DNA from: Desulfosudis oleivorans Hxd3
GTDB lineage: Bacteria > Desulfobacterota > Desulfobacteria > Desulfobacterales > Desulfosudaceae
Direction of reading: 5' to 3'
DNA: 64,000 nucleotides
Assembly (NCBI RefSeq): GCF_000018405.1
Contig: NC_009943.1
Span: forward strand, 1,801,001-1,865,000
Shown: positions 42,619 to 56,500 of the stretch, piece after piece
Numbering within the stretch: the first letter of the stretch is position 1
Layout of the letters: the number at the start of each line of letters is the position of its first letter
The notes under the pieces: model-generated
The model's input: only the letters and a program-made list of their open reading frames with translations
Database searches by the model: none
What the model was told of the DNA's origin: nothing
Program-made: the position numbers and the translations under genes

Positions 42619-43239
42619 ATGCCCACCCCTCTTGAGAAAGCCCGGTCCAATCCAGACTCCATGAAGGCCAGAATATTTGCGTCGGCCCAGAAGCTGTTTG
42701 CCGAATACGGATACGACGGTACCACCACCCGCATGATCGCCAAAGACGTGGGCATCGATATCTCAACGCTTTATTACCACTGGGGGGAGAAAAAAGAGCT
42801 CTACATGGCGGTGCTGGAGCATTTCAAAAGAGAGATCGGTTCCAAGCTCAAGGAGATTGAGGCCATGGTGCGGGGCAAGTCTCTTGAAACCCGTCTGGAC
42901 GTGGCCATTGATGAGATGTGCGACTACCTCTTTGATCGCATTGAGGTGACCCGGCTGATCCTGTTCAGTTCCTTTATTAAGTCCAGGGACACCGACGACC
43001 TGGGTGTGGCCATCTCCGATCACATTTCCAACATCGCCGTTGCCATGGGCCTGGCTATGGACAAGAGCAGCATCACACCCGAGGCCAAGGCCCGGGTCAT
43101 GGCCATGGTGCTTTCCCTGTTCAGTTTTATTTCCGGCGAAATCTTTCTGCGCCCGATTTTAAACATCGACGCACCGGAATATGTCAGGACCGTCAAGGAG
43201 ACGTTAAAATTTACGCTGATCCCCGCGTTCACGCGGTAG
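42619..43239 (+). CDS. TetR-family transcriptional regulator
   Basis: The 206-residue protein has a TetR helix-turn-helix (ARIFASAQKLFAEYGYDGTTTRMIAKDVGIDISTLYYHWGEKKELY, read in two parts: helices 1-2 and recognition helix). The C-terminal ligand domain is all-helical. It is 91 nt upstream of the hydratase-2/SDR/SCP2 gene on the same strand, so it probably represses the acyl-CoA cluster and responds to an acyl-CoA or its precursor. The start sits 90 nt after the palindrome at 42514-42529. Confidence 0.88.
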   Translation: MPTPLEKARSNPDSMKARIFASAQKLFAEYGYDGTTTRMIAKDVGIDISTLYYHWGEKKELYMAVLEHFKREIGSKLKEIEAMVRGKSLETRLDVAIDEMCDYLFDRIEVTRLILFSSFIKSRDTDDLGVAISDHISNIAVAMGLAMDKSSITPEAKARVMAMVLSLFSFISGEIFLRPILNIDAPEYVRTVKETLKFTLIPAFTR

Positions 43240-43330: not shown

Positions 43331-45463
43331 ATGGCGTTAAATCCAAAGGCCGTCGGAATGGATCTGGATCCGGTGGTCAGGGAGTACACGTGGAAGGACG
43401 TGGTTTTGTACGCCCTGGGCGTGGGGGCCGGGTTTTCGGACCTGGACTACTGTTATGAAAAAAACCTGAAGGTCATTCCCAGCTTTTCCATTGCCGCGAT
43501 TTTCGATTTTCTCATTCAGCTGGGCATCAAGTCGGAGTTGAACCTTGCCGGCCTGCTGCATGCCGAGCAGGAGCTGATTTTTCACAATCCCATTCCCGTC
43601 AACGGTAAGCTGACCACAAAGGGCCGCATCACCAACATGTATGACAAGGGGCCCAAGGGCGCCATCATTGTGGGCGAAACCGACACCTTTGCCGAGGATG
43701 GAACCAAACTCTTTACCAGCATCGTCACCCTGTTTGCCCGGTTTGACGGGGGCTTTGGCGGGCCGGACGCACCCAAGAACCCGATTGTTATGCCCGATCG
43801 CGCCCCTGACCTGGAGGTGGAGGATTGCCCGTCGCCCAACCAGCCACTTCTGTACCGGCTCTCCGGCGATGTGAATCCACTGCATGTGGACACCGATTTT
43901 GCCAAGATGGCCGGTTTTCAGCAGCCCATCATGCATGGCCTGTGTACCCACGGTTATGCCTGCCGGCTGCTCATCGGCAGCCTGATTCCGGGCCAGCCGG
44001 AAAAGGCCCGCCGCATGGCATGCCGGTTCACCCGCACCCTGATCCCCGGTGATCCCATCAAGCTCCAGGTGTGGAAAGAGGGCGACGGCAAGGCCTTCTG
44101 GCGGGTGGTCAATCCCAGGACCGGCGATATTGTCATCGACCTGGGCGTGTTCGAGTACGGCGATATTCCGAAAGATGAAATCCGGTTTGACGACCGGGTG
44201 GCCATTATCACCGGCGCCGGCGGCGGCCTGGGGCGGACATATGCCCTGGAACTGGCCAAACGCGGCGCCAAAGTGGTTGTTAACGATCTGGGCGGTGCCC
44301 GCGACGGCTCAGGCAAAGGATCCTCCTCCGCAGCCGACAAGGTAGTTGAAGAGATCAAGAAAGCCGGTGGCGAGGCGGTGGCCAATTATGACAACGTGGC
44401 CACGGCCAAAGGCGGCGAAAACATCGTTAAATCGGCCGTAAAAGCGTTCGGCAAGGTCGATATTCTCATCAATAACGCCGGTATTCTGCGGGACAAGAGC
44501 TTCCTTAAAATGGAACCGGAAAACTGGGACGCCGTCATGGCCGTGCATCTTCAGGGCGCTTACAATGTGACCCGCCCGGCTTTCAAGGTTATGAAGGAAA
44601 ACGGTTACGGCCGTATTATCATGACCACCTCGGCAGCCGGTCTGTACGGCAATTTCGGCCAGACCAATTACTCTTCCGCCAAAATGGCCCTGGTCGGGTT
44701 TATGAATACCCTCAAACTGGAAGGGGGAAAGTACGATATCAAGGTCAATACCATTGCGCCCATCGCGGCTTCCCGGCTGACCGAAGATATCATGCCCCCC
44801 GATATTTTCGCCAAAATGGCTCCCGAATATGTCAGCGCCATGACGCTTTACCTGTGCAGCGACCGCTGCCCGGTAAACGGTAACATTTACAATGCCGGCA
44901 TGGGCTTTTTCAACCGGGCCGCTGTTATAACCGGCCCCGGCGTTGTGCTGGCCGGTGGTGAGGATGGATTCCCAACAGCGGAAGCTATTCGCGACAATCT
45001 GCCGCGGGTTTCTGCTTTAAAGAACGGCAAACCCTATTACCAGCTGAATGATCAGGTCGGCGATGCCATGACCGCCCTGATGAACCCGCCATCCGCCGAC
45101 ACCGGCGACACCGCGGCCCCCCAGGCGGAGGCCCCGGCAGCAGCCGGATCGGTTAAGGACTATTTCGCTTCCATGACCGACCATTTTGTCAAAGAGGCGG
45201 CCGCGGGTGTTGATGTTGTTTTTAACTTCCTGATTTCCGGTGGCGGCGGCGGTGACTGGCACTGCATCATTAAAGACCAGACCTGCACGGTGAAAACCGG
45301 CGCAGCCGGTAAGGCCACCTGCACCATTAAAATGGCGGACGGCGATTTTCTTGACATGATGTCCGGCAGGCTGGCGCCCATGGCGGCCTATTCATCGGGC
45401 AAGCTGGTTATTGAAGGCGATGTCATGAAATCCCAGCTGATTGAAAAAGTGTTTAAACAATAA
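43331..45463 (+). CDS. Trifunctional enzyme: enoyl-CoA hydratase 2 / 3-hydroxyacyl-CoA dehydrogenase (SDR) / SCP2
   Basis: The 710-residue protein has three domains. Residues 1-283 are a double hot-dog hydratase-2 (MaoC) with the catalytic segment SGDVNPLHVD (D180, N182, H185). Residues 286-560 are an SDR with TGAGGGLG, the serine in TTSAAG and YxxxK in TNYSSAK. Residues about 605-708 are an SCP2 lipid-binding domain. These are the parts of peroxisomal MFE-2 (D-bifunctional protein) but with hydratase and dehydrogenase swapped. It should convert 2-enoyl-CoA to 3-ketoacyl-CoA via the (3R)-hydroxy intermediate. The AGGAGG site is good and the next gene follows after 65 nt. Confidence 0.9.
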   Translation: MALNPKAVGMDLDPVVREYTWKDVVLYALGVGAGFSDLDYCYEKNLKVIPSFSIAAIFDFLIQLGIKSELNLAGLLHAEQELIFHNPIPVNGKLTTKGRITNMYDKGPKGAIIVGETDTFAEDGTKLFTSIVTLFARFDGGFGGPDAPKNPIVMPDRAPDLEVEDCPSPNQPLLYRLSGDVNPLHVDTDFAKMAGFQQPIMHGLCTHGYACRLLIGSLIPGQPEKARRMACRFTRTLIPGDPIKLQVWKEGDGKAFWRVVNPRTGDIVIDLGVFEYGDIPKDEIRFDDRVAIITGAGGGLGRTYALELAKRGAKVVVNDLGGARDGSGKGSSSAADKVVEEIKKAGGEAVANYDNVATAKGGENIVKSAVKAFGKVDILINNAGILRDKSFLKMEPENWDAVMAVHLQGAYNVTRPAFKVMKENGYGRIIMTTSAAGLYGNFGQTNYSSAKMALVGFMNTLKLEGGKYDIKVNTIAPIAASRLTEDIMPPDIFAKMAPEYVSAMTLYLCSDRCPVNGNIYNAGMGFFNRAAVITGPGVVLAGGEDGFPTAEAIRDNLPRVSALKNGKPYYQLNDQVGDAMTALMNPPSADTGDTAAPQAEAPAAAGSVKDYFASMTDHFVKEAAAGVDVVFNFLISGGGGGDWHCIIKDQTCTVKTGAAGKATCTIKMADGDFLDMMSGRLAPMAAYSSGKLVIEGDVMKSQLIEKVFKQ

Positions 45464-45528: not shown

Positions 45529-48270
45529 ATGATTGGCATTACTTCTTATGGCGCATTTGTTCCGCGTTACAGACTGAGCCGCAGCTCCATTTTCCAGACC
45601 ATGGGATGGTTTGCCCCGGCGATCATGATGGTCGCCCAGGGTGAACGGTCCATGTGTAACTGGGATGAGGATCCGATTACCATGGCGGTCGGCGCGGGAC
45701 GGGATTGCTTGACGGAATATGATAAACAGCAGATCGACGGCCTGTACCTGGCGTCAACCAGCCTTCCGTTTATGGATCGCCAGAACGCCGGCATTGTATC
45801 GACGGCGTTGAACTTAAGCGAACATATCGCCACCGCCGACTTCACTTCTTCCCAGCGGGCCGGCACCTCTGCGCTGATTCACGCCGTGGAATCGGTCAAG
45901 AGCAAGGAAAAAAACAATGTGATGGTCATCGGTACCGATGCCCGGGAAACCAAGCCCGCCTATTTTTATGAAATGTGGTATGGCGACGGTGCCGCCAGTG
46001 TAACCATCGGCTCCAAAGACGTGATCGCGGAATACAAAGGATCATTTTCGTTGACCCGTGATTTTGTGGATCATTATAAGGGAAAAGGCCGTCGCTTTGA
46101 CTATTTCTGGGAAGAGCGATGGGTAAGGGATGAAGGCTTTTCCAAGATCATTCCCGAAGCGGTCAACGGCCTGTTCGAGAAAATCGGAATGACCGGCGAT
46201 AAGGTCGACAAGTTTGTGTTTCCCTGCTTTTTCGCCAAGGACCGGAAAAAAATCGCCAAGCTGTGCGGCATTGATCCGTCCAGGGTCACTGATCCGCTGC
46301 ACGAGGTCTGCGGTGATACCGGCGCGGCCCATGCCCTGCTGATGCTGGCCGCGGCACTGGATGACGCCAAGCCCGGTGAAATTATTGTCGTGGCCGGTTT
46401 TGGCCAGGGGTGTGACGCCCTCTGTTTCAAGGTAACCAAAAACATTGCCACCCTTGCGCCCAGGGATGGCGCCCACGGCACTCTTGAGAACAAGCTCTCC
46501 ATTGATAATTATGCCAAGTTCCTGGTTTTCCGTCAGTTGATCGAACCGGATATGGGCATTCGAGCGGAGGCGCCGCTGCAGACGGCGTTGACGGCCCTGT
46601 ATCGCAACCGGAAAATGTTGCTTGGCCTGGTGGGCGGCAAGTGCCGTGAGTGTGGTACGCCGCAGTTCCCCAAGTCCAAGGTCTGCGTTAACCCTCACTG
46701 CGAGGCCATGCACAGTCAGGATGATTATGAGTTTGCCGGCCAGCCGGCCCGGGTCAAGACATTTACCGGGGATATGCTGTCGGTCAGTGTGGATCCGCCC
46801 AATATTTACGGTATGGTTCAATTTGACAACGGCGGCCGCATGATGGCGGATTTTACGGATTGCAGCATTGACGATGTCAAGGTCGGCCTGCCGGTGGAAA
46901 TGGTTTTCCGTCGGCGGGTGGTCGATCCGGAACGCAAATTTTCGTCCTATTTCTGGAAGGCCAAGCCCATTGCCGGTGCTGCCGTGGACGAAGTGGACAA
47001 GCTTACCATGGACGGCCGGGTGGCGGTCATTACCGGTGCCGGCGGCGGCCTGGGCCGGGCCTATGCCCTGGAATTCGCCCGGCGCGGCGCCAAGGTGGTG
47101 GTCAACGACCTGGGCGGCTCCCGTGATGGTTCGGGTAAAGGATCAAAGTCACCGGCTGAAGTGGTGGTCAAGGAGATCCAGGACCTGGGGGGTGAGGCGA
47201 TTGCCAATTACGACAACGTGGCAACAGCCAAAGGCGGTGAAAATATTATCAAGGCCGCGGTCAAGGCCTTTGGTACCGTGGATATTGTCGTCAATAACGC
47301 CGGTATCCTCAGGGACAAGAGCTTTCTCAAGATGGAACCGGAAAACTGGGACGCTGTTCTGGCGGTCCATCTTACCGGTGCCTATAACGTCACCCGGCCG
47401 GCCTTTGCCATTATGAAGGAAAAGGGTTTCGGCCGTATCATCATGACCACGTCCGCTGCCGGTCTTTACGGCAACTTCGGGCAGACAAACTACTCCTCGG
47501 CCAAGATGGCCCTGGTCGGTTTCATGAATACCCTTAAGCTGGAAGGGGGCAAATACAATATCAAGGTCAATACTGTCGCTCCCCTGGCCGCTTCCCGGCT
47601 GACCGAAGACATCATGCCCCCGGAAATTTTCGAGAAAATGAAACCGGAGTATGTGGTACCCCTGGTCACCTACCTGGCCAGCGAGGAGTGCGAGCCCACC
47701 GGCAATATCTTTAATGCCGGCATGGGATATTACAACCGGGCCGCCATAATGACCGGCAACACCGTTCAGATCGGCGATAATGATAAGCTGCCCACGCCGG
47801 AGGATATTCATAAAAACTGGGATGCCATCAACAGCCTGGAAGGCGCGAAAGAACTGTCCGACCTGAATACCGCCATGATGGATCTGCTGTCAGGCCCCCA
47901 GGCGTCCGGCGGCGCTGAAAAAGCCCAGCCGGCCGGTGATGCAGGAGACGTCACCCCCCAGGTGGTTTTTGATATGATGCCCGGCGTCTTCAAGCCGGAA
48001 GCCGCGGCCGGTGTAAATGTGGTCTTCCAGTACAGCATTTCCGGTCCCACCGGAGGCGACTGGAACGTCACGGTCAAAGACCAGAAATGCCAGGTGAAAA
48101 AAGGCACGGCGAAAAAGCCCACCTGTACCATCAAGATGGCGGACGATAACTTCGTCAAGATGGTGACCGGCAAGCTCAATCCCATGAAGGCATACTCTTC
48201 CGGGGATTTGAAGATCGAGGGCGATATCATGAAATCTCAGCTGATTGAAAAGCTGTTTACCTTAAAATAA
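45529..48270 (+). CDS. Fusion of HMG-CoA-synthase-like, DUF35 (Zn-ribbon/OB), SDR and SCP2 domains
   Basis: The 913-residue protein reads: HMGCS-like thiolase fold (1-350), DUF35 rubredoxin-like zinc site (C372, C375, C386, C391) and OB-fold (to ~475), SDR (490-770; TGAGGGLG at 502-509, S642, Y655, K659), Ala/Gly linker, SCP2 (805-910). In the HMGCS-like part the residues at the catalytic Glu, Cys and His positions are T77, Q109 and the PCFF segment (232-235), so condensation is unlikely. DUF35 normally partners thiolases, and an SCP-x-type thiolase is the next gene. It likely holds the thiolase and the dehydrogenase together. Confidence 0.88.
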   Translation: MIGITSYGAFVPRYRLSRSSIFQTMGWFAPAIMMVAQGERSMCNWDEDPITMAVGAGRDCLTEYDKQQIDGLYLASTSLPFMDRQNAGIVSTALNLSEHIATADFTSSQRAGTSALIHAVESVKSKEKNNVMVIGTDARETKPAYFYEMWYGDGAASVTIGSKDVIAEYKGSFSLTRDFVDHYKGKGRRFDYFWEERWVRDEGFSKIIPEAVNGLFEKIGMTGDKVDKFVFPCFFAKDRKKIAKLCGIDPSRVTDPLHEVCGDTGAAHALLMLAAALDDAKPGEIIVVAGFGQGCDALCFKVTKNIATLAPRDGAHGTLENKLSIDNYAKFLVFRQLIEPDMGIRAEAPLQTALTALYRNRKMLLGLVGGKCRECGTPQFPKSKVCVNPHCEAMHSQDDYEFAGQPARVKTFTGDMLSVSVDPPNIYGMVQFDNGGRMMADFTDCSIDDVKVGLPVEMVFRRRVVDPERKFSSYFWKAKPIAGAAVDEVDKLTMDGRVAVITGAGGGLGRAYALEFARRGAKVVVNDLGGSRDGSGKGSKSPAEVVVKEIQDLGGEAIANYDNVATAKGGENIIKAAVKAFGTVDIVVNNAGILRDKSFLKMEPENWDAVLAVHLTGAYNVTRPAFAIMKEKGFGRIIMTTSAAGLYGNFGQTNYSSAKMALVGFMNTLKLEGGKYNIKVNTVAPLAASRLTEDIMPPEIFEKMKPEYVVPLVTYLASEECEPTGNIFNAGMGYYNRAAIMTGNTVQIGDNDKLPTPEDIHKNWDAINSLEGAKELSDLNTAMMDLLSGPQASGGAEKAQPAGDAGDVTPQVVFDMMPGVFKPEAAAGVNVVFQYSISGPTGGDWNVTVKDQKCQVKKGTAKKPTCTIKMADDNFVKMVTGKLNPMKAYSSGDLKIEGDIMKSQLIEKLFTLK

Positions 48271-48282
48271 TGGAGGGTGAAG

Positions 48283-49497
48283 ATGGCTACAGGTATCAGA
48301 GACAAGGTAGCAATCATCGGCATGGGCTGCACCAAGTTCGGAGAACGCTGGGATGCGAATGGTGAAGATCTGCTCGTTGAGGCGTTTGAAGAGTGCCTGG
48401 CGGATTCCGGCCTTGAAAAAAAGGATATTGAAGCCGCCTGGTTCGGCACCTGCCTGGAAGAAATAAATGTCGGTAAAACCGGCATGCCGCTGTCAACCAC
48501 CCTGCGGCTGCCTATGATTCCGGTGACCCGGGTGGAAAACTACTGCGCCACCGGCACCGAGGCCTTTCGCGGGGCCTGCTATGCCGTGGCGTCCGGGGCC
48601 TATGACATCTGCCTGGCCCAGGGGCTGGAAAAACTCAAGGATACCGGTTACGGCGGACTGCCCAACCCGGGCTCCGGCGCCGGCACCCTGACCTGGCAAT
48701 GGTGGCCGAATATTTCAGCGCCGGGCTGTTTCGCCCAGCTGGCCAGTGCCTATGCCGCCAAGTACAAGGTATCGGACCGGGACCTGAAGCGGGCCATTGC
48801 CCACGTGTCGGTGAAAAGCCACGCCAACGGCGCCCTGAATCCCAAGGCCCACCTCCAGAAGGCGGTGACCGAGGAGCAGGTGATGAATTCGCCGATCATC
48901 GCCCATCCCCTGGGACTTTTTGACTGCTGCGGCGTGAGTGACGGTTCGGCCTGTGCCATTGTCACCACACCGGAAATCGCCAAAAAGATGGGCAGGAAAA
49001 AAGCCGAGATCATCAGCGTCAAGGCACTTCAGGTCGCCCTCAGCAGTGGCCAGGAAGTGGGCTACAATGAATGGGACGGTGAGCACTTTATGACCACTTC
49101 CGTATGCAGTACCCGGGCCTATAAGGAAGCCGGTATCCAAGACCCCAGAAAAGAGATCAGCATGATGGAGGTCCATGACTGCTTTTCCATCACCGAGCTG
49201 GTTACCTATGAGGATCTGCATATTTCAGAACGGGGCCAGGCCTGGAAGGATTCCTTGAATGGCGTCTATGACCGGGACGGTGAAGTGCCCTGCCAGATCG
49301 ACGGCGGTCTGAAATGTTTCGGTCATCCCATTGGCGCGTCCGGTCTGCGGATGCTCTATGAAATGTACCTGCAGCTTTTGGGCCGGGCGGACAAGCGCCA
49401 GCTGGACAATCCTAAAATCGGGTTGACCCATAACCTGGGCGGTTTTCCGTTCCAGAACATCTGCGCCATCTCCATTATTGGCAAATACGGCGAATAG
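48283..49497 (+). CDS. SCP-x-type thiolase (acetyl-CoA/propionyl-CoA acyltransferase)
   Basis: The 404-residue protein has the nucleophile C88 in VENYCATGTEAFRG, the histidine in CFGHPIGASG and, in place of the thiolase CxG motif, HNLGGFPFQN, as in SCP-x/BbsB-type thiolases. It should cleave 3-ketoacyl-CoA. It lacks an own SCP2 domain. Such thiolases need a DUF35 partner, which is present only in the fused protein upstream. ATG 48283 follows GGAGG by 6 nt, 12 nt after the preceding stop. Confidence 0.9.
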   Translation: MATGIRDKVAIIGMGCTKFGERWDANGEDLLVEAFEECLADSGLEKKDIEAAWFGTCLEEINVGKTGMPLSTTLRLPMIPVTRVENYCATGTEAFRGACYAVASGAYDICLAQGLEKLKDTGYGGLPNPGSGAGTLTWQWWPNISAPGCFAQLASAYAAKYKVSDRDLKRAIAHVSVKSHANGALNPKAHLQKAVTEEQVMNSPIIAHPLGLFDCCGVSDGSACAIVTTPEIAKKMGRKKAEIISVKALQVALSSGQEVGYNEWDGEHFMTTSVCSTRAYKEAGIQDPRKEISMMEVHDCFSITELVTYEDLHISERGQAWKDSLNGVYDRDGEVPCQIDGGLKCFGHPIGASGLRMLYEMYLQLLGRADKRQLDNPKIGLTHNLGGFPFQNICAISIIGKYGE

Positions 49498-49572: not shown

Positions 49573-50727
49573 ATGGATTTTACACTCACCAAATCCCAGA
49601 AGGAGATTCAAAAGGCCGTCCGGGATTTTGTCAAAGGCGAGTTCGACAAGGATATGGGGCTTGATCTGGAAAAGGAGCGCGCCTATCCGGCCGAAGTGCT
49701 GGCCGCGGCGTGCGACCTGGGGTTTATCGGCATCCATTTTCCTGAAAAATACGCGGGTGCCGACCTGGGCCTGTTTGAAAACTGCCTGATCGGCGAGGAG
49801 CTGTGCCGAAAGGATTCCACTCTGGGGCTGGCCCTGATGCTCACGGGCTACGGCGCTGAATGTATTCTCCGCTTCGGGAGTGAGGCCCAGAAGGAAAAAT
49901 ATTTGCCGGTCGTGGCGGAAGGAAAAGCCTTTTCCGCGGCGGCATTCCTGGAAGCGGGTCAGGGATTTGATCTGCGCACCGTTCAGACCACGGCCCGTAA
50001 AGAGGCCGATGGCTGGGTGATCAGCGGTGCCAAGTCCCTGGTGCTAAACGGTGGCACGGCCGGGTTTTACGTGGTGCTCTGCCGCACCGATGACGCGGCC
50101 CCCGCGCCGGACGGGCGGCTGAGCATGTTCGTGGTGGACGCCGGCCTGCCGGGAATCTCCTGCCAGGATGCTGGACGCCGCATGAGCTGCAACATGCTGT
50201 CTGCCGCGGACGTGACCTTTGACAGTGTCAAGGTCGGGGCCGACGCGCTGCTGGGTTCGGAAGGCAAGGGGTTTGTCCAGGTGAACGCCTATTTTAACGA
50301 GCTGCGGGTGGTACTGGCAGCCCTGGCCGTAGGCATCGCCCAGGGGGCCTATGAAAAGGCCCTAGCTTACATCAAACAGCGGGAGCAGTTCGGCAAGAAG
50401 CTTGTTGAGTTTCATATCACCTGGCACAAGGTGGCCACCATGGCGACGCAGATCGAGTGCGCGCGCACCTTTGTCTACCGGGCCGCCTGGACCTTTGACC
50501 AGGGCAAGCTGGATGCGGGGCTGTCCGCAATGGCCAAGATGACGGCGGCCAAAGCGGCCGTGGATGTGGCCTACGAGGCGATCCAGCTGTACGGCGGTTA
50601 CGGGTTCATGACCGAGTATGAAGTGGAACATTTTTACCGGGACGCCAAGTTTATTGACCTTTTCTGCGGTGCCGTGGGTGTCCAGAAAGATGTGATCGCG
50701 GAAACCATTGTCGGTAAAATAAAATAA
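49573..50727 (+). CDS. Acyl-CoA dehydrogenase family protein without the canonical catalytic Glu
   Basis: The 384-residue flavoprotein has the ACAD fold: helical N-terminus, beta domain (WVISGAKSLVLNGGTAGFYVV) and C-terminal helices with REQFGKKL and LYGGYGFMTEYEVE. At the usual YEGT catalytic site it reads FCGA, and at the alternative LCAD/IVD site the residue near FNELR is not clearly a Glu. It may act as a partner subunit, or use another base. It has a GAGGG site and is 20 nt from the next ACAD gene. Confidence 0.85.
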   Translation: MDFTLTKSQKEIQKAVRDFVKGEFDKDMGLDLEKERAYPAEVLAAACDLGFIGIHFPEKYAGADLGLFENCLIGEELCRKDSTLGLALMLTGYGAECILRFGSEAQKEKYLPVVAEGKAFSAAAFLEAGQGFDLRTVQTTARKEADGWVISGAKSLVLNGGTAGFYVVLCRTDDAAPAPDGRLSMFVVDAGLPGISCQDAGRRMSCNMLSAADVTFDSVKVGADALLGSEGKGFVQVNAYFNELRVVLAALAVGIAQGAYEKALAYIKQREQFGKKLVEFHITWHKVATMATQIECARTFVYRAAWTFDQGKLDAGLSAMAKMTAAKAAVDVAYEAIQLYGGYGFMTEYEVEHFYRDAKFIDLFCGAVGVQKDVIAETIVGKIK

Positions 50728-50746
50728 CGCACGGGTGGAGGACATT

Positions 50747-51892
50747 ATGGATATACTGCATTATACGGAAGCCCATGAAGCGTTCCGCAAGCGGCTCCGC
50801 GCATTCTGTGAAAAAGAGATCACCCCCCATGTCGAGGAGTGGGAGGCAAGCCATATCGTGCCCAAAAGCGCCTGGAAGGCCATGGGTGCCGGAGGGTTTT
50901 TGTGTACCAACGCGCCGGCTGAATACGGTGGCCACGGCCTGGATTTTCTCTATTCGGTGATCGTGGCCGAAGAGCTGGCCCGGACCAACCACACCGGGCT
51001 GGCCGCGCCCCTGCACAGCGACATCGTGGTGCCCTACATCGTTTCCTACGGCTCGGAGGAGATCAAGAAAAAATACATTCCCGGGTGCACGTCCGGCGAC
51101 ATCATCACGGCTGTGGCCATGACCGAACCGGATGCCGGCAGTGACGTTGCCGCCATGACCACCATCGCGGTGGAAGAGGGCGACGAGGTAGTGCTCAACG
51201 GGTCCAAGACCTTTATCACCAACGGCATCAACGCCGACCTGGTGGTGGTGGCGGCAAAGGACCCGGCCGCGGAAAACCCCCACCAGGCGGTTTCCCTTTA
51301 CATTGTGGAAGACGGCACCCCCGGTTTTACCCGGGGCCGGCACCTGGAGAAGATGGGCTTCCACAGCCAGGACACGGCCGAGCTGTTTTTCACCAACTGC
51401 CGCATCCCCAGGAAAAACCTGCTGGGCGAAAAGAACATGGGGTTTGTCATGCTCATGGAAAAGCTTCAGCAGGAGCGGCTGATCTGCGCGGTCATGGCCC
51501 AGTTTGCCGTGGAGATCATGATGGAGGCCGTGGTGGGGTACTGCAAGGGCACCAAGGACACCACGGGCAAGCCCTACTCAAAACACCAGGCCGTCAACTT
51601 CCAGCTGGTGGAGATGATGACCGAGGCCCATATCGGACGGGTGTTTATGGAAAAGCTGGTGGCCGACCACATGGAAGGAAAGAACGTGGTTCGGGAGACC
51701 TGCATGGCCAAGTACTGGCACACCGACCTGACCCAGACGATCTCCAACCAGGTGCTGGACCTGATCGGCGAGGAGGCCACGGCCGAACGGAGCCTGATTC
51801 TGAGGGGCTGGCGGGACCTGCGGGTGCTGCCGATTTTTGCCGGCACCAACGAGATCATGAAGCTGGTGGTGGGGAAGATGTCGGGCCTGTAA
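50747..51892 (+). CDS. Acyl-CoA dehydrogenase, LCAD-like
   Basis: The 381-residue protein starts at ATG 50747 (GGAGG 6 nt upstream). It has AMTEPDAGSDVAAM, TFITNGINADLVVV and the C-terminal FAGTNEIMK, where the YEGT-type Glu is Ala. The catalytic base is instead probably the Glu of KLQQERL, the position used by LCAD and isovaleryl-CoA dehydrogenase. It would introduce the 2,3 double bond using FAD and ETF. It is probably active, alone or with the preceding ACAD. Confidence 0.9.
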   Translation: MDILHYTEAHEAFRKRLRAFCEKEITPHVEEWEASHIVPKSAWKAMGAGGFLCTNAPAEYGGHGLDFLYSVIVAEELARTNHTGLAAPLHSDIVVPYIVSYGSEEIKKKYIPGCTSGDIITAVAMTEPDAGSDVAAMTTIAVEEGDEVVLNGSKTFITNGINADLVVVAAKDPAAENPHQAVSLYIVEDGTPGFTRGRHLEKMGFHSQDTAELFFTNCRIPRKNLLGEKNMGFVMLMEKLQQERLICAVMAQFAVEIMMEAVVGYCKGTKDTTGKPYSKHQAVNFQLVEMMTEAHIGRVFMEKLVADHMEGKNVVRETCMAKYWHTDLTQTISNQVLDLIGEEATAERSLILRGWRDLRVLPIFAGTNEIMKLVVGKMSGL

Positions 51893-52023: not shown

Positions 52024-53172
52024 ATGCTTGCCAACGGCTCCCTGACCGGCATCAAGGTGATCGATCTTTCACGGCTGTTGCCCGGCCCTTACTGCACCAT
52101 GATCCTGGCCGATCACGGGGCCCGGGTCATTGCCATCGAGGACCGGCGCTTTCTGGCAGACGGCCTGTTTTTAAACACCGTCAACCGGAACAAGGAACAC
52201 ATCACGTTAAACCTGAAAAGCGAACAGGGGAAAAAGATATTCTTTGATCTGGTCAAAGACGCTGACGTGGTGGTGGAGGGCTTCCGGCCCGGCGTGGTGG
52301 AAAAGCTGGGCGTGGATTACAAAACCGTGGCCGAAAAAAACCCTAAAATCGTTTACTGCTCAATTTCCGGCTACGGCCAGACCGGTGAATACCGGGACAG
52401 AAGCGGTCATGACGTAAACTATCTGGCCCTGTGCGGCGTGCTGGACCTGATCGGTGACAAGGACAGGCCGCCCGCTATTCCCGGGGTGCAGTTCGCCGAT
52501 ATCGCCGGCGGCGGCATGAGCGCGGCCATCGGCATTCTGCTGGCCCTGGTGGCCCGGCAGACAACCGGCAAGGGCCAGTACATCGACATCTCCATGACCG
52601 ATTCCATGCTGGCCTTTCTTCCCACAGCCCTGTTCATGCACCATGCCATCGGTGTCTTTCCGGAGCGGGCCAACGCCCTTCTGTCTCACCGGTACGCCTT
52701 TTACAACACCTATGAAACAAAGGACGGCCGCCACATCTCCATCGGGGCACTGGAGCACCGGTTCTGGAAAAACCTCTGCGCCCACCTGGGCCTTGATGCC
52801 TTTATTCCCCTGCAGTATGATGAGCCACGGCGGCAGGAGATCATCGACACCCTAAGAGACATCTTCCGGGCCAAAACCCTGGACCAATGGAAAACCGATC
52901 TGGCCGGTGTGGACTGCTGCTGGGCTCCGGTCCAGTCCGTGGCCGAAGTGCTGGACGATCCTTTTTTTGCCCACAGAGAAATGGTGGTGGACAGCGGTGA
53001 TCCGGATGCCCGCAAAGCCAAAACCATCGGGGTGCCGGTCAAGCTTTCCGACACGCCGGGCAGCGTGCGTACCGTGCCGGACAGTTTCGGCCAGAGCACG
53101 GTTGCCGTGCTGGGCGAACTGGGATATACAAAAGAACAAATCGAAACCTTTTTTAAAGACGGAGTGGTCTGA
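52024..53172 (+). CDS. CaiB/BaiF family protein, alpha-methylacyl-CoA racemase type
   Basis: The 382-residue protein is a class III CoA-transferase fold. It has the racemase residues H129 in SGHDVNYLAL and D159 in QFADIAGGGM, as in AMACR/MCR; these are the acid-base pair that epimerises 2-methyl acyl-CoA. The CoA-transferase aspartate pattern is not evident. This suggests the cluster handles 2-methyl-branched acyl-CoA. Its stop overlaps the frdC start by 1 nt (TGATG). Confidence 0.85.
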   Translation: MLANGSLTGIKVIDLSRLLPGPYCTMILADHGARVIAIEDRRFLADGLFLNTVNRNKEHITLNLKSEQGKKIFFDLVKDADVVVEGFRPGVVEKLGVDYKTVAEKNPKIVYCSISGYGQTGEYRDRSGHDVNYLALCGVLDLIGDKDRPPAIPGVQFADIAGGGMSAAIGILLALVARQTTGKGQYIDISMTDSMLAFLPTALFMHHAIGVFPERANALLSHRYAFYNTYETKDGRHISIGALEHRFWKNLCAHLGLDAFIPLQYDEPRRQEIIDTLRDIFRAKTLDQWKTDLAGVDCCWAPVQSVAEVLDDPFFAHREMVVDSGDPDARKAKTIGVPVKLSDTPGSVRTVPDSFGQSTVAVLGELGYTKEQIETFFKDGVV

Positions 53173-53810
53173 TGCATGTGATGCTCCAAACCCTGGGCAG
53201 TTCCATCGGCAAGAAGCTGCTGATGGCGCTCACCGGGTTCTGTTTCTGCGGTTTTCTGGCGGTTCACCTGGCCGGCAACCTGTCGGTGTACGGCGGCCCC
53301 GCTTTTTTCAACAGCTACGTCGAGCACCTGCACTCCCTGGGGGTGCTGATTCACGTGGCGGAAATCGGCCTGCTGGCCCTGGCCCTGGTCCATGTGACCA
53401 CCGGCATTCTTCTTTTTATCGGCAACCTGCGGGCCCGGCCGGTGCGCTATGCCGTGTCCCGGCGGTCCGGGGGCCGCACCTGGGGCTCGGCCACCATGCC
53501 TTACACCGGCTTTGTCATTCTGGCCTTTGTGATCTATCACCTGATCGGGTTCCACTTTGCCGACCATTCCACGCGGACCGTATTCCAGATCATGACCGAC
53601 GCCTTTGCCTCTCCCGGCGTGGCGCTACTGTACAGCGCCGCCGTGCTCCTGGTGGGCCTGCACATCAGCCACGGCTTCTGGAGCCTTTTTCAGACCTTCG
53701 GCGCCAACCATCCAGCCTACATGCCGGTGATTGAGAAGATCGGCATGGGGTTTGCCGTTTTTGTGGCCGTGGGGTTTGGTTCCATTCCGATTTATCTGTG
53801 GTTATCATAA
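53172..53810 (+). CDS. frdC: Succinate dehydrogenase/fumarate reductase cytochrome b subunit
   Basis: The 212-residue membrane protein has five hydrophobic helices and conserved histidines (AVHLAGNL, VEHLHSL, ALVHVTTG, IYHLIGFHF, GLHISHGF) that can ligate two b haems, as in the Wolinella QFR/SDH type. It links the enzyme to the menaquinone pool. The start ATG overlaps the stop of the racemase gene; an internal ATG at 53181 is also possible. It begins a C-A-B operon. Confidence 0.92.
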   Translation: MHVMLQTLGSSIGKKLLMALTGFCFCGFLAVHLAGNLSVYGGPAFFNSYVEHLHSLGVLIHVAEIGLLALALVHVTTGILLFIGNLRARPVRYAVSRRSGGRTWGSATMPYTGFVILAFVIYHLIGFHFADHSTRTVFQIMTDAFASPGVALLYSAAVLLVGLHISHGFWSLFQTFGANHPAYMPVIEKIGMGFAVFVAVGFGSIPIYLWLS

Positions 53811-53831
53811 AAAACAAGAAAGAGGATTTTT

Positions 53832-55745
53832 ATGCACCTTGACGCGCACATACCCGCCGGACCGCTTGCGGAAAAGTGGGACCGTCACCGGTTTGAGTTG
53901 AAGCTGGTCAACCCGGCCAACAAGCGCAAGTTCACCGTCATCGTGGTGGGCACCGGCCTGGCCGGTGGCGCGGCTTCGGCATCCCTGGCCGAGCTGGGGT
54001 ATAACGTAAAGACCTTCTGTATTCAGGACAGTCCCCGGCGGGCCCACAGCATCGCGGCCCAGGGCGGTATCAACGCGGCCAAGAATTACCAGAACGACGG
54101 GGACAGCGTGTGGCGGCTCTTTTACGACACCATCAAGGGCGGCGACTTTCGTGCCCGGGAAGCCAATGTCTACCGCCTGGCCCAGCTCAGCGTCAACATC
54201 ATCGATCAGTGCGTGGCCCAGGGGGTTCCCTTTGCCCGGGATTACGGGGGCCTGCTGGCCAACCGCTCCTTTGGCGGGGCACAGGTGTCGCGCACCTTTT
54301 ACGCCAAGGGCCAGACCGGCCAGCAGCTGCTGCTGGGGGCCTACGGCGCCCTGGCGCGCCAGATCAAGGCCGGCAAGGTGACCATGTTCCCCCGCCGCGA
54401 GATGCTTGACCTGGTAATGGCCGACGGTAAGGCCCGGGGCATCACGGTGCGCAACCTGATTACCGGCGAGATTGAATCCCATGCCGCCGATGCCGTTGTA
54501 CTGGCCTCCGGCGGTTACGGTAACGTGTTTTACCTTTCCACCAACGCCATGTCCAGCAACGTCACCGCCGCCTTTCGGGCTTACAAAAAAGGGGCCTGTT
54601 TTGCCAATCCCTGTTTTGTGCAGATTCATCCCACCTGCATCCCGGTCCACGGCACCTACCAGTCCAAGCTCACCCTGATGAGCGAAAGCCTGAGAAACGA
54701 TGGCCGGGTGTGGGTACCCAAAAAACCCGGGGACCGGCGGGCCCCTCACGAGATTCCGGAAAACGAGCGGGACTACTACCTGGAAAACAAGTATCCCAGC
54801 TTCGGCAACCTGGTGCCAAGGGACGTGGCCTCCCGTAATGCCAAGGAGCAGTGCGACCAGGGCAAGGGCGTGGGCTCCACCGGCCTGGCCGTTTACCTGG
54901 ATTTTGCCGATGCCATAAAGCGGGACGGGGAAAAGGCCATTGAGAAAAAGTACGGCAACCTGTTTGCCATGTACGAAAAGATCACCGGCGAAAATCCTTA
55001 TAAAACCCCCATGATGATCTACCCGGCCGTGCACTACACCATGGGCGGGCTGTGGGTGGACTACAACCTCATGAGCAACCTGCCCGGCCTGTTCGTGCTG
55101 GGCGAGGCCAATTTTTCCGATCACGGCGCCAACCGGCTGGGCGCCAGCGCCCTGATGCAGGGGCTGGCCGACGGCTATTTTGTGATTCCCTACACCATCG
55201 GCGGGTATCTTGCCGGCACGCCGCTGGAGAAAATCACCACCGGCCACGTGGCTTTCAAGGAATCCGTAACCCAGTGTGCCGGTCAGGTCGACCGGCTGTT
55301 GTCCATCAAGGGCCGTCGCACGGTGGACGATTTTCACAGGAACCTGGGAAACATCCTGTGGGACCACTGCGGCATGGCCAGAAACGACGAAGGCCTGGCA
55401 AAAGCCAAAGAGATGGTGGCCACGTTGAAGCAGGAGTTTTATGAGGACGTCACGGTTCCCGGCAGCGGGGCCGATCTGAACCAGTCCCTGGAAAAGGCCG
55501 GCCGGGTGACCGACTTTTTCGAGTTTGCCGGCCTGATGATCGACGATGCCCTGGCCCGGCGGGAGTCGTGCGGGTGCCACCTGAACGAGGCCTTTCAGAC
55601 TGAGGAGAACGAGGCCCGGCGGGACGATGAAAACAACTGCCACGTATCGGTGTGGGAATATGCCGGCCAGGATAAAGGCCCTGTGTTTCACAAGGAGCCC
55701 CTTGTGTTTGAAAACGTCAAACTGACCCAGAGGAGTTACAAATAA
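53832..55745 (+). CDS. frdA: Succinate dehydrogenase/fumarate reductase flavoprotein subunit
   Basis: The 637-residue subunit has a Rossmann FAD site [19 protein letters not shown], the flavin-linking histidine in [15 protein letters not shown], the active-site HPT ([13 protein letters not shown]) and [11 protein letters not shown]. It interconverts succinate and fumarate on the cytoplasmic side. GAGGA precedes the ATG. The stop overlaps the frdB start by 1 nt (TAATG). Confidence 0.95.
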
Positions 55746-56500
55746 TGGACCGCATCAATCTGACCTTGAAGGTATGGCGCCAGGAAAACGGCGACAGCAA
55801 AGGCGGGTTTGAAACATACACGGCCAGGGATATTTCCACGGACATGTCGTTTCTTGAAATGATGGACGTGGTCAACGAGGAACTGGCCCTGGCCGGCAAA
55901 GAGCCCATCGCCTTTGACCATGACTGCAGGGAAGGGATCTGCGGCATGTGCGGCGCCGTGGTCGGCGGCTTTGCCCACGGCCATGAAAAGGGCACCACGC
56001 TCTGCCAGCTTCACATGCGCCACTTTTCCGATGGCGACACCGTGGTGATCGAACCGTGGCGATCCCGGGCCTTCAAAGTGGTAAAAGACCTGGTGGTGGA
56101 CCGCAGCGCCTTTGACAGGATCATTCAGGAGGGGGGCTATATTTCCGTGAACACCGGCGGTGCCCCGGACGGTAACGCCATTCCCATCTCCCAGGAGGCG
56201 GCGGAAAAGGCCATGGACGCGGCCTCCTGTATCGGGTGTGGGGCCTGCGTGGCGTCCTGTCCCAACGGCGCGGCCATGCTCTTTGTGGGTGCCAAGATCT
56301 CCCAGCTGGCCCTGCTGCCCCAGGGCCGGCCCGAAGCCGGACAGCGGGTTCGGGCCATGTTAAAGGCCCACGACAGCCTGGGGTTTGGCAACTGTTCCAA
56401 CGAGCGGGAGTGTGAGGCCCGGTGTCCAAAGAATATTTCCATTGTCAACATTGCCCGCATGAACCGTGAGTTTATCAAGGCCGGGCTTTTAGCAGAATGA
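55745..56500 (+). CDS. frdB: Succinate dehydrogenase/fumarate reductase iron-sulfur subunit
   Basis: The 251-residue protein has a [2Fe-2S] motif ([13 protein letters not shown], then TLCQLHM) and a C-terminal ferredoxin-like part with [13 protein letters not shown] and [15 protein letters not shown] for the [4Fe-4S] and [3Fe-4S] clusters. It carries electrons from FrdA to FrdC. Its stop overlaps the phosphoesterase start by 4 nt. Confidence 0.95.

Follow-up and report, generated by a model that had tools for sequence, protein, structure and literature searches.

In a 64,000-nucleotide stretch of the Desulfosudis oleivorans Hxd3 genome (NC_009943.1, positions 1,801,001 to 1,865,000; hereafter the window), a single open reading frame (ORF) encodes four domains in the order HMGCS–DUF35–SDR–SCP2. 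The first belongs to the HMG-CoA synthase (HMGCS) family, has lost the catalytic Glu, Cys and His, and is under purifying selection with no decay. We consider it probable, from sequence comparison and by analogy, that this pseudo-HMGCS and the DUF35 form a dock for a thiolase in a β-oxidation operon, fused to the short-chain dehydrogenase (SDR) that would make the substrate of the thiolase. The PhlABC complex provides a solved precedent for this reading. If it is true, it would suggest that the archaeal/PhlABC type of HMGCS-DUF35-thiolase assembly is a widespread catabolic platform.

The ORF starts with ATG behind a Shine-Dalgarno-like AAGGAG and encodes 913 amino acids. The ORF, its domains and the gene that follows it are located as follows:

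45529 to 48270, + strand: the fusion ORF
45529 to 46548, + strand: HMGCS-like domain with Thr77, Gln109 and Pro232 in place of the catalytic Glu, Cys and His, residues 1-340 (Pfam, NCBIfam, alignment, fold)
46621 to 46974, + strand: DUF35/ChsH2-type zinc ribbon and OB fold with Cys 372, 375, 386 and 391, residues 365-482 (Pfam, alignment)
47011 to 47748, + strand: (3R)-hydroxyacyl-CoA dehydrogenase (SDR) domain of the multifunctional enzyme type 2 (MFE-2) kind, residues 495-740 (Pfam, alignment, solved-chain matches)
47971 to 48264, + strand: SCP2 sterol-carrier-like domain, residues 815-912 (Pfam)
48277 to 49497, + strand: likely partner thiolase, similar in kind to the archaeal enzyme, SCP2-thiolases and BbsB and retaining Cys90 and His350 (GHP) (Pfam, NCBIfam, solved-chain matches)

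A preliminary description, made from the sequence alone, had read the protein as an HMGCS fold joined to a DUF35, then an SDR and an SCP2, and Pfam found these domains in one ORF (ACP_syn_III_C at residues 217-296, zf-ChsH2 at 367-392, OB_ChsH2_C at 406-461, adh_short at 497-685 and SCP2 at 823-910). ACP_syn_III_C is the C-terminal part of the KAS III/HMGCS domain, and the DUF35 was matched through its zinc ribbon (E-value of 1e-6) and OB fold (5e-11). Residues 1-338 matched the NCBIfam model of archaeal-type HMGCS PRK04262 (E-value of 6e-58), scoring 196.5 bits, under the curated cut-off of 244, and residues 1-331 matched a second archaeal-type HMGCS model (5e-41; 141.2 bits, under the cut-off of 353.35). 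By sequence, the closest solved HMGCS-like chains are those of PhlA (1e-34 and 3e-33), followed by MtHMGCS of the archaeal complex (2e-26). Because an AlphaFold2 model of the whole chain was only moderate (pLDDT 76.5, pTM 0.56), no pocket geometry is claimed. The N-terminal part of the model matched 6esq_J of the archaeal complex with a Z of 43.9 (root-mean-square deviation (rmsd) 2.1, 335 residues aligned), as well as PhlA 9skh_C (Z 43.4, rmsd 2.0, 335 aligned), 5mg5_A (Z 43.0) and MucABC 9vbo_A (Z 40.1). Together, the PRK04262 match, below its cut-off, and the fold match to 6esq_J place the domain in the HMG-CoA synthase family.

The catalytic residues were located by phmmer alignment to MtHMGCS (6esq_I), where Glu82, Cys114 and His238 correspond to Thr77, Gln109 and Pro232 of the fusion; a MAFFT alignment with family members agreed. 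The numbers Glu82 and Cys114 follow the passages on this enzyme in PMC6392133, while His238 was counted here. Relatives came from a GTDB scan with at least 592 matching stretches, 582 of them relatives, of which the best 80 were kept, a sample that leans to close kin. In all 80 the Glu column holds Thr, and no Cys occurs in the Cys column, which holds Gln in 48, Leu in 27, Ile in two, and Met, Glu and Val in one each. The His column is Pro in 79 and Ala in one, and the column of Asn270 is Glu in 73 and Asp in seven. All three catalytic residues were likewise lost in each of the 17 unfused relatives tabulated at order level, which are more distant, and in the four plasmid-borne relatives read. 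The Glu, Cys and His of an active HMG-CoA synthase are thus missing from the window protein and from 80/80 relatives, and the domain lacks Cys and Glu as does the non-catalytic subunit PhlA. The by-eye assignment of Thr77, Gln109 and a PCFF segment to the three sites therefore stands, with Pro232 of that segment in the His column and Cys233 adjoining, and it is general in the relatives sampled.

The DUF35 zinc site had been described as intact, and its four Cys are indeed invariant in 50/50 full-length fusion sequences, a set that includes the window protein. That the next gene encodes a thiolase also extends beyond the window. Of the 80 loci, 62 have at least 900 bases downstream of the HMGCS-DUF35 gene, and in 61 of these a thiolase starts directly 3′ of it, within 400 bases of the gene end. 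A thiolase is also next in all 15 unfused distant loci fetched (of 17; L033 and L038, on short contigs, were left out) and in the four plasmid loci read. Cys90, His300-Asp301-Cys302 and His350 of the thiolase are kept in 59/59 near and 17/17 distant sequences, the latter from 16 fetched loci (the 15 unfused ones and the fused L134, plus a presumed second, more distant thiolase in L129), and His385 in 59/59 and 14/17. Its best solved matches are 7yvy, 6esq_A, 4yzo, SCP2-thiolases and BbsB (7pxp_C, 1.5e-47), and its HDC segment is common to the archaeal thiolase 6esq_A in the alignment. The HMGCS-like domain is thus encoded with a DUF35 in the same chain and, in nearly all loci with room, beside a thiolase that keeps its Cys.

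The SDR has both the sequence and the Ser-Tyr-Lys of an MFE-2 (3R)-hydroxyacyl-CoA dehydrogenase. It matched the solved dehydrogenases 2et6 (2e-137), 1gz6 (1e-90), 1zbq (2e-89) and 3oml (2e-82), and Asp527, Ser642, Tyr655 and Lys659 are invariant (50/50). The SDR part of the model matched 1gz6 and 2et6, the latter with a Z of 33.7; Foldseek matches to MFE-2 were 40-52% identical, with an rmsd of 3.2 for 2et6 and of 13-14 for 1gz6 and 3oml.

We compared the window with the nearest relative found (G002, locus L134) and obtained ratios of nonsynonymous to synonymous substitution (dN/dS) of 0.10 for HMGCS, 0.09 for DUF35, 0.06 for SDR, 0.25 for SCP2 and 0.06 for the thiolase. Median identity to the window's own sequence among the 80 loci was 63% for HMGCS (80 matches), 68% for DUF35 (76) and 78% for the thiolase (59); fusion SDRs were measured against the SDR of the MaoC gene of the window rather than its fusion SDR, with a median of 74.5% (61). 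Across the 50 full-length sequences, 66 residues of the HMGCS domain do not vary, including Thr77, Asp178, His182, Trp194 to Trp198, Pro232, Cys233, Gly265 and His268. No second HMGCS was found in the same genome, where the HMGCS-domain query matched only itself; the other 18 matches of the whole fusion lay in the SDR part, save one weak match over residues 370-502. Among related genomes, the HMGCS-domain query matched 23 of 58.

HMGCS, DUF35 and SDR share one ORF in 66 of the 80 loci, which rules out a sequencing error or chance ORF as the source of the fusion. SCP2 was detected in 51 of these, eight reach the contig end before SCP2, and the fused ORF ends without a detected SCP2 in L047, L064, L071, L073, L086 and L093. 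In L060 the fusion ORF is shortened to 607 amino acids and the thiolase is missing, so this module may be decaying. The remaining loci are split by a frame break (two: L039, L091), look unfused where they are cut by contig ends (five: L057, L066, L081, L104, L116) or are unfused (seven: L074, L075, L092, L105, L114, L115, L117). In a quick HMGCS-domain tree of 107 rows, rooted on MtHMGCS and made without bootstrap, all 75 fused rows fall in one clade (SH-aLRT 96), nested inside unfused, dead HMGCS–DUF35 proteins. Of the five unfused rows inside this clade, L039 and L091 are split by frame breaks and L074, L075 and L117 have apparently lost the fusion, and five further rows are cut by contig ends; PhlA, MtHMGCS and L029 are long branches whose exact place is unsure. 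Because the fused clade sits inside equally dead unfused proteins, the loss of the catalytic residues most likely came before the fusion to SDR-SCP2.

Contigs labelled Planctomycetes (L090) and Chloroflexi (L104, L116) carry the dead HMGCS-DUF35 gene and are nested in an otherwise Desulfobacterota-rich clade, suggesting transfer or mis-binning. Matches were also found on 45 plasmid records, from which the four plasmid loci were read. On plasmid records of Sphingobium, Rhodococcus and Variovorax, the annotation calls unfused relatives hypothetical, OB-fold or KAS III proteins. On haloarchaeal plasmids, several of the matches run across a gene for a zinc-ribbon protein and one for a thiolase domain.

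Considering these results, the first 480 residues may be viewed as an HMGCS-like domain without catalytic function, in one chain with its partner DUF35. This part would dock the thiolase of the next gene, a role that PhlA and PhlB have towards PhlC, and archaeal HMGCS and DUF35 towards acetoacetyl-CoA thiolase. Fused to this putative dock are the MFE-2-type dehydrogenase, with its catalytic residues kept, and the lipid-binding SCP2 domain, so that the enzyme predicted to make 3-ketoacyl-CoA would be tethered to the thiolase predicted to cleave it. Hydration would be carried out by the MaoC-SDR-SCP2 protein encoded upstream and the first oxidation by the acyl-CoA dehydrogenases. The fusion and the thiolase may form a physical complex of some stoichiometry, in which intermediates would be kept close or handed over; the direction is presumably degradation, and the substrate may be a hydrophobic or branched acyl-CoA. 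The same parts also occur unfused, with separate SDR and MaoC genes beside an unfused HMGCS-DUF35 and thiolase in L125 and L127 (2/15) and in Sphingomonas L135, which we count in favour of the dock. The preliminary idea of a dead synthase serving as the non-catalytic part of a DUF35-thiolase complex is thus the best reading, by analogy with PhlABC as presented in passages of PMC6392133.

Four observations weigh against this reading. The SDR-SCP2 part is dispensable, as seven of the 80 loci are unfused and six fused ORFs end without a detected SCP2. L060 is the one locus in 62 without an adjoining thiolase. The dead domain has polar residues that are invariant in 50/50 sequences (Asp178, His182, Glu195, Glu196, Arg197, Cys233 and His268), which a pure scaffold need not require. 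Finally, in a competition assay described in sections of PMC12329534, CtShy-CtSal, of the DUF35-thiolase type, showed no significant channelling.

Such invariant residues raise the question of whether the HMGCS domain has been rebuilt rather than died, with Cys233, Glu/Asp263 and His268 forming a new active or acyl-carrying site. Cys233 and His268 are present in 50/50 full-length fused sequences and residue 263 is Glu in 44 or Asp in six; the 233 column is also Cys in 15/17 unfused order-level relatives, and purifying selection on the domain would fit. Still, we regard a rebuilt site as unlikely: the 233 column reads Ile, Glu, Ser and Ser in the four plasmid relatives, and among unfused relatives the 268 column varies (His, Gln, Asp, Asn and others). 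To our knowledge, neither column coincides with a catalytic position in thiolase-fold enzymes, which also counts against it. The preliminary description had further noted that Gln at the Cys site recalls KSQ decarboxylase domains. That Gln109 makes the domain such a decarboxylase seems scarcely credible: the Gln is shared by the window and 48 relatives, but the other 32 of the 80 have Leu, Ile, Met, Glu or Val there. The site therefore tolerates several letters besides Gln, which is no KSQ signature, and we rejected this candidate on the conservation of the position. As a whole, the earlier interpretation is partly supported.

The remaining alternatives concern the reaction. A complex that acylates or condenses as PhlABC does, instead of degrading, would agree with PhlA being the nearest solved HMGCS-like chain and with the closeness of MucABC in fold, but the thiolase scores 7yvy, 6esq_A, 4yzo, SCP2-thiolases and BbsB above PhlC, and the cluster holds hydratase 2, dehydrogenase, acyl-CoA dehydrogenase and CoA transferase genes. 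We therefore think acylation improbable, and a retro-aldolase like Ltp2 or Sal more improbable again. DUF35 does partner with Ltp2 and Sal too, according to parts of PMC12329534, and the thiolase matches Ltp2 6ok1_A at 7e-20. However, thiolases match much better, Cys90, His300-Asp301-Cys302 (the HDC shared with 6esq_A) and His350 are invariant, and the YDCY motif that the same parts of PMC12329534 name for Sal is absent from the thiolase.

Returning to the thiolase dock, its setting within the gene cluster is as follows:

42619 to 43239, + strand: TetR-family regulator, head of the cluster (Pfam, recurring gene order)
43331 to 45463, + strand: MaoC hydratase 2 - SDR - SCP2 gene, its SDR-SCP2 part 67% identical to that of the fusion (Pfam, sequence comparison)
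49573 to 51892, + strand: two acyl-CoA dehydrogenases, 49573-50727 and 50735-51892 (ORFs, Pfam)
52024 to 53172, + strand: family III CoA transferase (Pfam, NCBIfam)

Across relatives, the order TetR, MaoC-SDR-SCP2, HMGCS-DUF35-SDR-SCP2, thiolase and acyl-CoA dehydrogenase recurs. By a strict rule, the MaoC-SDR gene is upstream in 52 of 70 loci with room. In nine of the 18 misses the gene is there, though it overlaps by the ORF rule, is split or is cut (L045, L049, L057, L081, L082, L094, L097, L098, L111), and none was seen upstream in the unfused L092, L105, L114, L115 and L117 or in L116, which is cut. In L085, L090 and L112, an upstream gene carries SDR (and SCP2) with no MaoC part detected by BLAST against that of the window, so this part may be diverged, replaced or lost. 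In the window (53172-56500) and in the two near relatives L039 and L134, the CoA transferase is followed by SdhC and SdhA genes, with SdhB as well in the window and L039. Scans counted 11 promoter-like (5.7 expected) and 17 terminator-like (14.0 expected) sequences, which were not used as evidence.

The SDR-SCP2 cassettes of the two neighbouring genes appear homogenised, and sequence comparison across relatives points to their concerted evolution. In a tree of 122 SDR domains, 62 from fusions and 60 from MaoC genes, whose bootstrap had not settled, the two gene types were intermixed: 21 label changes, at least eight of them forced by starred branches, compare with 41 after shuffling, so the labels cluster without separating. 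When the fusion SDRs from all 48 complete pairs were constrained to a single clade, the cost was 314 log units (approximate unbiased test, p-AU 2.5e-4), the group having been set by gene type and the test made after the tree was seen. We also compared DNA blocks of 20 codons in 27 loci with both full cassettes, most of them metagenome assemblies where collapse is possible in single cases. L099 has seven consecutive identical blocks (a 420-base tract), L078 four blocks at 97-100%, and L079 93-97% over its last five blocks (SCP2). Most other loci have blocks of about 60-90% over the SDR; the window itself has 62-87% and no identical tract. A tentative extension is that the operon encodes the cytosolic and anaerobic equivalent of the MFE-2 and SCP2-thiolase system of peroxisomes, with a pseudo-HMGCS adapter. 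One cassette would sit on the hydratase and the other on the thiolase dock, gene conversion keeping them matched for a shared substrate or perhaps even for co-assembly into one hydratase-dehydrogenase-thiolase particle.

Parts of this architecture are already known: PhlA is a dead HMGCS that is complexed with DUF35 and a thiolase, and DUF35 has been seen fused to SDR and SCP2. Passages of a 2010 DUF35 structure paper (PMC2954200) state that fusion partners of DUF35 homologues include thiolase-superfamily, SDR and SCP2 domains, and name PhlA as an inactive member. Our literature searches of open-licence papers returned no study of the HMGCS–DUF35–SDR–SCP2 fusion and no functional study of unfused HMGCS-DUF35 proteins, and the portions of two sulfate-reducer genome papers (PMC5109826, PMC4103992) reached by term search held no passage on the fusion. 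The interest of the system is that a pseudo-enzyme, a thiolase and a dehydrogenase are tied in one anaerobic β-oxidation-like operon with apparently homogenised neighbouring cassettes. Strong selection maintains the pseudo-enzyme in sulfate reducers and their relatives, and almost every locus seen has a thiolase alongside; such proteins should not be annotated as HMG-CoA synthase, and the simple two-gene system makes it testable whether DUF35 complexes channel CoA intermediates.

Among the closest known systems is the Pseudomonas 2,4-diacetylphloroglucinol (DAPG) acyltransferase PhlA/PhlB/PhlC (5m3k, 9skh), which likewise combines an HMGCS-like subunit without Cys and Glu, a DUF35 and a live thiolase-fold partner; PhlA is the nearest solved sequence relative of the fusion N-terminus (fold Z 43). 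As described in passages of PMC6392133, the complex has the composition (A2C2)2B4, and the residues that act all belong to PhlC. Unlike the fusion, PhlABC consists of three separate proteins, performs biosynthetic C-acylation and has no dehydrogenase or SCP2 domain. The archaeal acetoacetyl-CoA thiolase/HMGCS/DUF35 complex (6esq) has the three parts in common with the fusion and its thiolase; in fold, 6esq_J is the top match, tied with PhlA, and the thiolase matches 6esq_A. Its HMGCS keeps Cys114 and Glu82 (same passages), whereas the fusion lost all three residues and carries HMGCS and DUF35 in one chain. Parts of PMC12329534 describe the DUF35 domains, in the archaeal complex as in that of Phl, as scaffolds keeping the assembly in one piece. 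Bacterial unfused HMGCS-DUF35 proteins, annotated for instance as 'OB-fold domain-containing protein' beside an 'acetyl-CoA acetyltransferase', share the dead N-terminal module and the downstream thiolase in the loci read, but have no SDR-SCP2. In BbsA-BbsB benzoylsuccinyl-CoA thiolase (7pxp), a DUF35 zinc finger works with a thiolase in anaerobic β-oxidation; we know of no HMGCS-like part there and of no fusion to SDR or SCP2. Peroxisomal MFE-2 (1gz6, 3oml, 2et6) has the same kind of SDR and also joins it to SCP2. Its hydratase 2 is replaced in the fusion by HMGCS-DUF35, while the hydratase-bearing counterpart is the neighbour gene. From its sequence, the fusion thus looks like an MFE-2 with the hydratase exchanged for HMGCS-DUF35, its hydratase-bearing twin being encoded by the preceding gene.

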